Source of the DNA: Thalassospiraceae bacterium LMO-JJ14
Lineage (GTDB): Bacteria > Pseudomonadota > Alphaproteobacteria > Rhodospirillales > Casp-alpha2
Reading direction: 5' to 3'
NCBI GenBank assembly: GCA_021555105.2
Contig: CP134604.1
Coordinates: forward strand, 3,262,501-3,326,500
DNA length: 64,000 nt
Positions 57,323-61,173 of this stretch are shown here, one piece after another. Below the pieces are notes generated by a model that saw only the letters and a program-made list of their open reading frames with translations, was not told the DNA's origin and ran no database searches. The stretch's first letter is position 1, and each line of letters opens with the position of its first letter. Position numbers and translations under genes: made by a program.

Positions 57323-58411
57323 TTGACCCACGCCATTTCATTCAACGACGGCAAGACGGCGCAGCGACACAAGGCCGCCGCCAGGATCGACGCCGACACG
57401 CTCGTCATCGCCAACGAAGCCGGCGGTGAACTCGCGCGCTGGTCGCTCACGGATATCCGCTATGCCGACCCGGCGCACCGCACGCCGCCGCTCCGGCTCA
57501 GAAATGCCGGCACCGATGCCCGCATCACCCTGCCCGCCGATGACGACGGTGCATGGCTGACGGCGCATTGCGCAAACCTGACCAGGCGCGATGCCGGCGC
57601 CGTCAAATGGCCGACGTGGGTGGCGGCGGGCATTCTCGCGCTTGCCTCGATTACCGGGATATTTATCTATCTGCTGCCGGCCGCGTCGAGCGCCATTGTC
57701 CGGATTGTCCCAGCCGCACTGGAACAGCGCATCGGCGCCGAGGCCCGCGATCATCTTCTGAATATATTCGGCCAGTTGCGAGAGAACGGCACGCCGCTTG
57801 TCTGCCACCACCCCGATGCGCAAGCGATCCTCGACACCCGCGCCAACGAACTGGCGACCTTGATGGAAAGCCCGTTCCCGGTCCGTGTCACGGTGGTGCG
57901 CTTTCCCGTCGTCAATGCCCTGACCCTGCCCGGCGGTGAGGTCATTATCCTTTCGGGGCTTCTGGACAAGGCCGAAAACGCGGACGCTGTAATCGGCGTG
58001 CTGGCGCATGAAATCGCCCACGTCGTGCGCCGTGACCCGCTGCAGGTATCGATCAAGCAGACCGGGGCGGCGCTGATGATCAGCCTTGTCGTCGGCGATG
58101 TCTTCGGCGGCGCCGCACTGGGCGGGCTGGCATCGGGGCTGATCGAAAACGGCTACAGCCGCGATGCCGAGGCGGCGTCGGATTTCCTCGCCGTCACCGC
58201 GCTCAATCAGCTCGGCCTGACGGCGCTGCCACTGGCCGACTTCGTCGCCGGGATGGGCAAGGAAGACCCCATGGCCGGGGTGGTGCCGTCGTTTCTGAAT
58301 ACGCATCCGGGCGGCGATGAGCGTCGGCGCGACATCACCCGCCTTTCGCAAGGCATGGGCCGGGCAATGAGCAGTTACGAGTGGAAGACCGTCAAGAACA
58401 TGTGCCGCTGA
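57323..58411 (+). CDS. M48-family metalloprotease
   Basis: 362 residues. The N-terminal ~95 residues are soluble, one helix follows (WVAAGILALASITGIFIYLL, about 99-118), then the zinc protease domain with HEIAH at 229-233 and the third ligand probably Glu283 in SRDAEAASDF. The family includes HtpX and BepA-like proteases. The start is a TTG at 57323 with GGGGGATT ahead, two bases after the DUF898 stop, so the two genes are coupled. Confidence 0.88.
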   Translation: MTHAISFNDGKTAQRHKAAARIDADTLVIANEAGGELARWSLTDIRYADPAHRTPPLRLRNAGTDARITLPADDDGAWLTAHCANLTRRDAGAVKWPTWVAAGILALASITGIFIYLLPAASSAIVRIVPAALEQRIGAEARDHLLNIFGQLRENGTPLVCHHPDAQAILDTRANELATLMESPFPVRVTVVRFPVVNALTLPGGEVIILSGLLDKAENADAVIGVLAHEIAHVVRRDPLQVSIKQTGAALMISLVVGDVFGGAALGGLASGLIENGYSRDAEAASDFLAVTALNQLGLTALPLADFVAGMGKEDPMAGVVPSFLNTHPGGDERRRDITRLSQGMGRAMSSYEWKTVKNMCR

Positions 58412-58543
58412 CAAGGTTAATTTTTATATCCGGACCCTGTGCGGTTGGTCACAGACAGCAGGCCCGCCTTCACCTTTAATGGTTAACGTCCAGATAGAGA
58501 TCGTGTTCAGAACGAGCACGGCTCCAAGATACAGGAGGCAATT

Positions 58544-58672
58544 ATGAAGTTACGAATGAAAGAAATCATAAACGAAACTGTCGGTGCCGCCCTTGGCACG
58601 AGTGTCGGCGTCTGTGTTATCGGCTACGGTATCCTGAGCCTGGTCACGAACAGCCTCGAAGTTCTTTTCTAA
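58544..58672 (+). CDS. 42-residue single-span membrane protein
   Basis: A perfect AGGAGG lies 5 bases ahead of the ATG. The protein starts MKLRMKEIINE, continues with the hydrophobic stretch GTSVGVCVIGYGILSL (about 18-33) and ends in LEVLF. It is too short for most gene finders. The strong ribosome site and the membrane-like composition support it as a real small protein. No family recognised. Confidence 0.65.
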   Translation: MKLRMKEIINETVGAALGTSVGVCVIGYGILSLVTNSLEVLF

Positions 58673-58727
58673 ATTCCCGCGAGAGCCGGATAGGCGTTGC
58701 CCGCGTGGCATCTGTCCGGCCGATCGC

Positions 58728-59090
58728 TCACCCCTGCAAGCCGCGCGGCCCCAGGACACGAAGCATTTCCGCGACCTCGCGTTCACGTTTTTCATCGTCC
58801 TGGTTCGCGTCGAACTGCAAAGCGAACCCATCCGGGATACGGCGCCTTACATAGCCGCACTGCTGGCCCATGCCGGCCATGTGCAGTTGCACGAACTGAT
58901 CGTTCTCGAAGACGACATCCGCAACGCCGGTAATGGCGGCGCCGGTGGATGAGATATCATGGAGCCGGCCGACGAACGGCTGCTCGCCGACACGGCCCTC
59001 AATCGGGGCGTCGACGAAATAACGTTCCGCTGCACGTTTATCGGCGTCGCTATCGGCCAACGCTGCCTTCCCCCTCAGGCCCCGCATCAT
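58728..59090 (-). CDS. PilZ-domain protein
   Basis: 120 residues from ATG 59090. RAAERYFVDAPIEGRVGEQP with GRLHDISSTGAAITG carries the R-x3-R-like and D/N-x-S-x-x-G parts of a PilZ domain, which binds cyclic di-GMP. The arginine motif is less perfect than in the best-studied members, so binding is likely but not certain. Its start lies right against the 25-bp repeat array. Confidence 0.8.
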   Translation of the reverse strand: MMRGLRGKAALADSDADKRAAERYFVDAPIEGRVGEQPFVGRLHDISSTGAAITGVADVVFENDQFVQLHMAGMGQQCGYVRRRIPDGFALQFDANQDDEKREREVAEMLRVLGPRGLQG

Positions 59091-59183
59091 CCCACGGGCG
59101 CATGCCCGCATTCATCCCACGGGCGCATGCCCGCATTCATCCCACGGGCGCATGCCCGCATTCATCCCACGGGCGCATGCCCG
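59091..59183. repeat. 25-bp tandem repeat, 4 copies, containing the dehydrogenase stop codon
   Basis: CCCACGGGCGCATGCCCG occurs at 59091, 59116, 59141 and 59166 with CATTCAT between copies. Each unit is itself palindromic (CGGGC/GCCCG). On the minus strand each unit reads GHAPVG then stop; the one nearest the dehydrogenase gene supplies its real C terminus, so the array arose by duplication of that gene's end. It separates the gene from PilZ and may act as a hairpin series for transcript ends. Confidence 0.9.
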
Positions 59184-60211
59184 ATGATCCGCGTGTGCCG
59201 CTCGACATACGCATCCCAGCATGACGGATTGACGAGACGCGGCGCGCGCTTGCCGCCCAGAACTTCGACCCACTGCTCGGCCCCCCACTTCGCCATCTTG
59301 TAATTGCAGACGTCGGTGATCCCCGCCGCATGCGGTGTCATCAGGACGTTTTCGAACTGCATCAGCGGGTGGCCGGGGCCTGGCGGCTCGTCATCGAACA
59401 CATCGACGCCGGCGCCGTTCATCTGCCCCTTGGCGAGGGCTTCGACCAATGCCGCCTCGTCATGCACGAAATGCCTGGCCGTGGTGATGAAATACGCCTC
59501 CGGCTTCATCATCGCGAAGGCTTCGGCGCCGATCATCCCGCGCGTTTCAGCGGTCAGCGGGCAGTGCACGGAGATAAAGTCGGACGTCCTGAAAACGGTT
59601 TCGAAATCGGCCTTTTCGGCGTTTCGCTCGGTAAAGTCGGCATCGGAAATATACGGATCATAGGCAATGACGTTCATATCCAGCGCGTGGCGGGCGATCT
59701 TCGCCGTGCGCCGGCCGATGTTACCGAGACCGATGATCCCCAGCGTCTTGCCGGTCGCTTCGAGGCCCGGATAGGCCATGCGGTCGAGACCCGGGGCCTT
59801 ACGCATCATGCGGTCATGGCGGATCATGTTCTTGCCGAGCGCCAGCAGCATGCCGATGGCGTGCTGTGCGACGCTGTCGGAATTGGCACCCGAATTGTTC
59901 ATCACCATGATGCCCATGTCCGTCGCCGCCGCATCGTCGCAGGCATCGTAACCGGCACCGAGGGACGAGATCGCCAGCAGGTTCGGACACTTTTCCATGA
60001 ACGCCCGGTCCGGCCGCCAGCGCGGCTGCATTTCCGTCTTGGCCAGCATCTGATAGCCGTGTGCGCCCTGCATGACCTCGAAGACCCTGGCCTCGTCTTC
60101 ATCCTGATCGAGACGGATCAATTCGATTCCGGGCGCGTTTTCCAGGATTTCCACGGCGACCGGATGCGCCCAGGTATCGAAATAGACAAGACGGCGGGTA
60201 TTGGCGTTCAT
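59162..60211 (-). CDS. D-isomer-specific 2-hydroxyacid dehydrogenase
   Basis: 349 residues. The NAD-binding loop GLGNIG is at 161-166, and the catalytic set Arg246 (TARHFVHDEAAL), Glu275 (DVFDDEPP) and His294 (TPHAAGI) is complete. It reduces 2-keto acids or oxidises D-2-hydroxy acids with NAD(P); substrate unknown. The start at 60211 has GAGGGAGAT ahead. The last residues GHAPVG are encoded by the first unit of the 25-bp repeat. It lies directly downstream of the LysR gene. Confidence 0.9.
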   Translation of the reverse strand: MNANTRRLVYFDTWAHPVAVEILENAPGIELIRLDQDEDEARVFEVMQGAHGYQMLAKTEMQPRWRPDRAFMEKCPNLLAISSLGAGYDACDDAAATDMGIMVMNNSGANSDSVAQHAIGMLLALGKNMIRHDRMMRKAPGLDRMAYPGLEATGKTLGIIGLGNIGRRTAKIARHALDMNVIAYDPYISDADFTERNAEKADFETVFRTSDFISVHCPLTAETRGMIGAEAFAMMKPEAYFITTARHFVHDEAALVEALAKGQMNGAGVDVFDDEPPGPGHPLMQFENVLMTPHAAGITDVCNYKMAKWGAEQWVEVLGGKRAPRLVNPSCWDAYVERHTRIIGHAPVG

Positions 60212-60264
60212 TGATAAATATCTCCCTCGTGAGGGCGATAAAGTGAAACCGCGCCGCCGTTGCG

Positions 60265-61173
60265 TCAAGCCTGTGCCGTGCCGGCAGCCGAAATCGTCTG
60301 CGCCATCTCGGCAACACGGGCCAGGATTGGACGCGAGGGGTCAGCGATATAGGATGCCGTGAAGTTCAGCGCCGTCGGATACCAGTCGCTCTCTATCTCG
60401 ATCAGGCGCCCGTCATTCAGGGCGTTCTCAGCAAACACCCGGGGCAGCGAGCCGATACCGACGCCGCGCTCGACCATGCGCTGGCATGCCGACAGCGAGG
60501 TTGAGGGAAACAGCCGCGGCACTTCGCCGGTTCTGGCCCGCATCGCTTCGGATATTTCGAAATACGGCCGGGTGTTTCTGGGGAACGTCAGGATCGGGTA
60601 TTCCCGCATTTCCTTGAGCGTCATGCGCAGTTTGCCTTTACGGCCCGGTTTCATATCGCTCGGCGGGCGCATCGCCCAGATCAGCGGAAAACTGTTCAGC
60701 GGCGTGTTGGTCACGGTGTATTCCGAAACCGGCCCCATCAGCAGCGCGACGTCGATGGCGTGTTCGACCAGTTCGTTGCGGAGGGTCGCCGTCACATCGA
60801 CGGAAATCTCGACGTCCAGCCCGGGGTAATTTTCGCGCAACTCCGCCAGCAGATCGGACAGCCAGGTCTGAACAATGGTCTCCGAAACGCCGAGGCGCAG
60901 GATCCCGCTGATCTCCGCCGGCACGCCGGCAAGATCGCGCATCGCCTGCACAGCGCCAAGGGCATCCTCGGCCAGTCCGAGCATCTCGAAACCCTTTGCG
61001 CTGAGACGCACTTCTCCGCCTTCCCGATCGAATAATTGCACAAGAAGCTCGGCCTCGAGATTTGCGATCCGGCTTGAGATGGCGGGTTGTGTCGTAAACA
61101 ACCGTTCTGCCGTTTTCGAGAAACTTCCCAGCTTCGCTACCCAGAGAAAAGCTTCCAACTGTTTGAGATTCAT
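60265..61173 (-). CDS. LysR-family transcriptional regulator
   Basis: 302 residues. A winged helix-turn-helix (FLWVAKLGSFSKTAERLFTT then QPAISSRIANLE) is followed by a periplasmic-binding-protein-like effector domain, as usual for LysR proteins. It is divergent from the DUF1445-TRAP genes and upstream of the dehydrogenase, so it probably controls this catabolic cluster in response to its substrate. Confidence 0.93.
   Translation of the reverse strand: MNLKQLEAFLWVAKLGSFSKTAERLFTTQPAISSRIANLEAELLVQLFDREGGEVRLSAKGFEMLGLAEDALGAVQAMRDLAGVPAEISGILRLGVSETIVQTWLSDLLAELRENYPGLDVEISVDVTATLRNELVEHAIDVALLMGPVSEYTVTNTPLNSFPLIWAMRPPSDMKPGRKGKLRMTLKEMREYPILTFPRNTRPYFEISEAMRARTGEVPRLFPSTSLSACQRMVERGVGIGSLPRVFAENALNDGRLIEIESDWYPTALNFTASYIADPSRPILARVAEMAQTISAAGTAQA

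Follow-up and report, generated by a model that had tools for sequence, protein, structure and literature searches.

A 25-bp tandem array made of the last codons of a dehydrogenase gene ahead of pilZ, probably a private near-neutral minisatellite

Between a D-2-hydroxyacid dehydrogenase gene and the pilZ gene downstream of it, we observe four head-to-tail copies of a 25-bp unit whose first part is the dehydrogenase's own last codons and stop. The array is absent from the dehydrogenase ends of all relatives examined, and the conserved start of pilZ lies beyond it. We consider it a private, probably recent and near-neutral minisatellite born by slippage, with a probability of roughly 0.78. All features of the locus are on the minus strand, with coordinates counted in the window, that is, the whole stretch of 64,000 nucleotides analysed:

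59162 to 60211, minus strand: D-2-hydroxyacid dehydrogenase gene (PF02826, PF00389), 349 aa, ending ...IIGHAPVG-TGA
59158 to 59182, minus strand: copy 1 of the 25-bp unit, beginning with 21 nt that are the dehydrogenase's last six codons and stop
59133 to 59157, minus strand: copy 2 of the 25-bp unit
59108 to 59132, minus strand: copy 3 of the 25-bp unit
59087 to 59107, minus strand: copy 4, a 21-nt core without the A present after the other three cores
59087 to 59161, minus strand: predicted mini-ORF of 75 nt (24 codons and stop) made of the three extra copies, from the translated sequence
59066 to 59076, minus strand: Shine-Dalgarno-like stretch GAGGGGGAAGG outside the array, putatively serving pilZ
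58728 to 59060, minus strand: pilZ gene (PF07238, E 3e-09), 110 aa from a TTG start placed by N-terminal alignment

Minisatellites repeat a unit of about 10-100 bp head to tail. Here TRF, run over the 64-kb window, reports 4.2 copies of a 25-bp unit at 59081-59183, with 98% matches and a score of 199, the top of 41 rows; the units lie head to tail and the score is far beyond chance, as 50 third-order Markov simulations of the window gave a best score of 79 and a median best of 49. An earlier note on this DNA had described four successive 25-bp units, each reading GHAPVG and stop on the minus strand, with the first unit as the true end of the dehydrogenase gene, and all of this is borne out. 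The 21-mer core GGGCATGCGCCCGTGGGATGA occurs on the minus strand at 59182-59162, 59157-59137, 59132-59112 and 59107-59087, mismatch-free in all four cases, and each copy encodes GHAPVG and a TGA stop, in a reading frame that shifts from copy to copy because 25 is not divisible by 3. Copy 1, read in the dehydrogenase frame, is the real end of the gene, and the C-termini of the two closest relatives are almost the same (IIGHAPVG and IIGHAPEG). The dehydrogenase itself matches PF02826 (E 7.2e-58) and PF00389 (E 2.5e-14), has homologues 80-90% identical in five genomes of the same genus, and finds its closest named matches in Rhodospirillales metagenome assemblies (90% and 87% identity). The note had further called the units palindromic, which holds in part: the unit contains an inverted repeat (CGGGC-ATGC-GCCCG), but its arms are of 5 bp, and the fold energy of 59060-59200 is the same as that of its dinucleotide shuffles (z = -0.01). 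All three internal junctions of the array read TGAATG, with another ATG overlapping the stop (ATGA). The mini-ORF listed above begins with the ATG immediately after the dehydrogenase stop and ends with the stop of copy 4.

The borders of the unit suggest how the array may have arisen. The motif CGGG is found on both of them, in ATCGGGC at the start of copy 1 and in TGCGGGG after copy 4, which fits the slippage expected between short direct repeats. Replication slippage between these two words, which flank the dehydrogenase's last codons, would have duplicated the 25-bp segment, and later slippage or unequal exchange would have brought the array to four copies. After the last core we find TGCGGGG instead of ATGCGGG, that is, one A is absent; this single-base difference at the last junction might reflect an A gained in the first duplication or one lost later. 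The four cores are without point difference, which active homogenisation or a copy number that changes often could explain as well. We infer that the extra copies, which add 75 nt of spacer before pilZ, were not removed by selection. Since the gene still ends with its original codons and stop, those of copy 1, the dehydrogenase protein is unchanged and selection would spare the further copies, in agreement with the note's statement that unit-wise changes of copy number leave this protein unaltered; pilZ, moreover, would have a start and a Shine-Dalgarno-like site of its own beyond the array.

The core is confined to this place. Searching the 3.89-Mb single-contig genome with up to 3 mismatches, we find only the four matches inside the array, and in 47 other genomes of the family the core gives three single matches with 3 mismatches each, against one for a backward control pattern. 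An exact 33-mer array pattern has 0 matches in viral_contigs. We also examined how common such arrays are in a 464-kb sample made of the window and 20 sampled stretches, about 12% of the genome, in which TRF reports 35 arrays with a score of at least 50. Only three of them have at least 2.8 copies, a period of at least 7 and at least 90% matches, so near-perfect short arrays are rare in the sampled 464 kb; these three are the 25-bp array, an 11-bp array of five copies at 3874-3928 and a 288-bp array of 30 copies in a long open frame. Across 58400-60400, no intrinsic terminator is found (1.7 expected), and the single promoter-like site, on the plus strand at 59883, is at chance level (0.9 expected). 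Among the matches listed from the open-access literature, none reports an array of a dehydrogenase's last codons before pilZ.

The other two of these arrays are observations in their own right. The 11-bp array is a second perfect short array in the window, GGGATTGCGGG repeated five times near the ends of two convergent genes. At the corresponding place in five loci of the same genus (L139-L143), no array of this type is found at a TRF score of at least 40; L139 has a 2.2-copy 11-bp repeat about 160-180 bp beyond the matched stretch. The 288-bp unit (L129:5254-13889), repeated 30 times with 97% matches, lies in an open frame of about 8.7 kb, corresponding to a giant repeat protein elsewhere in the genome.

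In an alignment of PilZ N-termini, five of six relatives begin in the column of TTG 59060; the aligner split the PilZ of the sixth, which begins two residues later. For L006 and L007 the start was chosen among several codons, while the other four relatives have one possible start each. The GAGGGGGAAGG stretch sits 5 nt upstream of this TTG, and the last core of the array ends 26 nt before it. TTG 59060 is thus the most likely start of pilZ, which makes the array a spacer and not a start region, contrary to the note's expectation that a change in copy number would alter the start region of pilZ. The pilZ frame remains open further upstream and contains ATGs +50, +71 and +74 nt from the dehydrogenase stop, so that PilZ might have a non-conserved N-terminal extension reaching across copy 4 to the end of copy 3. 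We also considered the array as part of the N-terminus of PilZ (from ATG 59111, 59090 or 59087), which is unlikely given that the six relatives start at the TTG or within two residues of it.

Known marks of c-di-GMP-binding PilZ domains are RxxxR and (D/N)xSxxG. The PilZ of the window shows both, as RAAER and DISSTG, and R26, R30, D52, S54 and G57 are invariant in all seven aligned PilZ sequences. The genome has three PilZ matches and eight GGDEF matches. The presence of both motifs in a genome with eight GGDEF matches makes a role in c-di-GMP signalling plausible, and with it the note's description of a c-di-GMP protein; by its motifs, this PilZ is plausibly of the c-di-GMP-binding type. Convergent with pilZ lies a 42-aa ORF (58544-58672, plus strand) with a hydrophobic middle, which is matched in the loci of 5 of the 29 relatives, all of the same genus, with 50-93% identity, and is perhaps a small, easily missed membrane protein.

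We compared the locus with its counterparts in related genomes. Some dehydrogenase match is found in all 61 genomes searched, and 30 loci were retained, namely our own and the best match of each of 29 relatives (46-90% dehydrogenase identity). Among 80 matched loci, L039 and L040 (47% identity, no PilZ match) and L041-L114 fall outside these 29, and L035-L038, which match the same-genus loci L006, L007, L009 and L008 in identities and spans, were not counted a second time. A PilZ ORF on the same strand lies directly downstream of the dehydrogenase in 17 of the 30 loci, our own and 16 of the relatives', and in the remaining 13 no PilZ is found within about 1.5 kb downstream (phmmer, E 1e-3). 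This adjacency (58728-60211 in the window), kept in 16 of 29 relatives' loci, suggests a functional link between the 2-hydroxyacid dehydrogenase and PilZ genes; we know of no such link. The array behaves differently: with a TRF score of at least 30 in the interval from -100 to +300 nt around the dehydrogenase stop, our own locus is the sole one of the 30 with an array at the stop (0 of 29 relatives), and L008, L011 and L022 have only 2-copy repeats at least 152 nt past the stop. As far as sequence comparison tells, the gene pair is old and the array is private among the genomes examined.

The spacing between the two genes bears on near-neutrality in two ways. Among the relatives that have both genes, the six nearest show distances from stop to pilZ start of 124 (136 by a second ATG), 100, 21, 15, 14 and 20 nt; our own locus has 101 nt, of which 26 nt would remain if the three extra copies were taken away. 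Both short and long spacers are thus found within the genus, and since the two closest relatives (90% and 87% dehydrogenase identity) have spacers of 124 and 100 nt without repeats, a spacer near 101 nt appears to be tolerated. Nevertheless, four of the six nearest relatives keep 14-21 nt, so a short distance could be important, and a longer one might not be neutral.

We then considered what a change in copy number would do to the RNA and to the reading frames, by folding and reading in script versions with 1-7 units. The spacing to pilZ follows 26 + 25 x (n-1) nt and increases from 26 to 176 nt, and the RNA structure of the spacer grows with copy number: the total minimum free energy is -101 kcal/mol with one unit and -178 kcal/mol with seven, a step of about 13 kcal/mol for each copy. 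The note had foreseen both changes, in spacing and in hairpins, and the calculation agrees. By contrast, opening the stretch from -18 to +8 around the TTG is computed to cost a nearly constant 13.6-14.3 kcal/mol, again at odds with an altered pilZ start region. With one copy, the ATG at -4, which overlaps the dehydrogenase stop, is in an open frame with pilZ. With two copies, the ATG at 0, right after this stop, takes that place, and an ORF of 21 codons runs from the -4 ATG to 11 nt past the first TTG base. With 3-7 copies, the -4 ATG gives a 17-codon ORF alone, ending 26-126 nt before the TTG.

These results allow us to weigh the phase-variable switch proposed in the note, in which the copy number would set the distance between dehydrogenase stop and pilZ, and hence the translation of PilZ. 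Such a switch could exist, but we see no sign of it in our results, and we hold this explanation to be quite unlikely. Slippage is conceivable in tandem, near-identical units of 25 bp, each unit would change the spacing by 25 nt, and contraction to one or two copies would place an ATG, at -4 or at 0, in open frame with pilZ. In reporter work, about 20 nt between genes is reported to nearly abolish stop-start coupling (PMC10666635). By this same range, 26 nt is already too far, so the TTG would have been hardly coupled even before the array grew, and a single copy would still not couple it. It is only with one or two copies that an ATG opens into pilZ, the 17-codon ORFs of longer arrays all stopping short of the TTG, while access to the pilZ start is computed to be hardly altered across 1-7 copies. 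Together with the long repeat-free spacers of the two closest relatives and the restriction of the array to one of 30 dehydrogenase ends, this leaves phase variation unsupported.

Another possibility is that the array acts as a MIRU-like translational insulator or relay: ribosomes would restart at a stop-adjacent ATG, read the 17- or 24-codon mini-ORF in the array, and thereby be held back from, or handed towards, pilZ. The TGAATG junctions, the ATG overlapping the stop and the exact fit of a 75-nt ORF, stop included, to the three extra copies are in its favour. MIRUs are described as having an ORF whose coupling to the gene downstream is at -4 nt (PMC12548453), and re-initiation in bacteria is reported to be governed by stable RNA structure just after stop codons (PMC7518266), of which each extra copy adds some. 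From this analysis, an insulating effect of the array on pilZ translation is possible. But the mini-ORF is what repeating a stretch with stop and ATG produces, 26 nt separate the last stop and the conserved pilZ start, shuffled versions of the array fold just as well, and none of the 29 relatives' loci has the array, so we regard such a role as unlikely. Very unlikely is a self-made insulator, in which the multiplied stop-start junction would separate dehydrogenase and pilZ by mini-ORFs, and a return to one or two units would reconnect the translation of pilZ, with an N-terminally extended PilZ, to that of the dehydrogenase; if true, this would be a copy-number switch born inside one gene pair, not from a mobile element. 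Least likely of all is an assembly or sequencing artefact, as the array, at 103 bp, is shorter than an ordinary read, the genome is one contig, and the A absent from the last copy gives a natural-looking boundary, even if exact repeats can be miscounted.

The near-neutral minisatellite, if neutral indeed, would be a clean example of tandem repeats arising at gene ends without cost, since the copied last codons and stop keep the protein intact, and the array could be used as a strain marker if its copy number varies. Should copy number alter the level of PilZ after all, the locus would show a switch arising from a gene's own tail.

REP and BIME elements consist of many dispersed palindromic copies. 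The present array is like them in being G+C-rich, weakly palindromic and beside a gene end, and differs in having no copies elsewhere in the genome, arms of only 5 bp and a folding no better than that of shuffles. We also considered a dispersed element of REP or MIRU type, which is ruled out by the single locus in the genome. Like MIRUs as described in PMC12548453, the array has repeats at a gene junction, contains a small ORF and brings stop and start codons into contact. MIRUs, according to two reports, are interspersed and apparently mobile (PMC12548453; PMC3635867), whereas the present unit occupies one locus and derives from the neighbouring gene; for MIRUs in infected macaques, one study puts the change in copy number at an estimated 2.7e-3 per locus per year (PMC3635867). 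Neither dispersal, with all four matches inside the array, nor coupling at -4 nt, with the conserved pilZ start 26 nt after the last stop, is found here; a PilZ starting from the ATG that overlaps the last stop, in the pilZ frame, would be longer by a non-conserved N-terminal part. The VNTR loci surveyed in Burkholderia pseudomallei (PMC1853098) are likewise short, near-perfect head-to-tail units, mostly between genes, with units of 3-16 bp as compared to 25 bp here. Unlike those surveyed loci, the present unit, known here from one genome, contains a gene's own last codons and stop. Overall, the array looks like a bacterial intergenic minisatellite.
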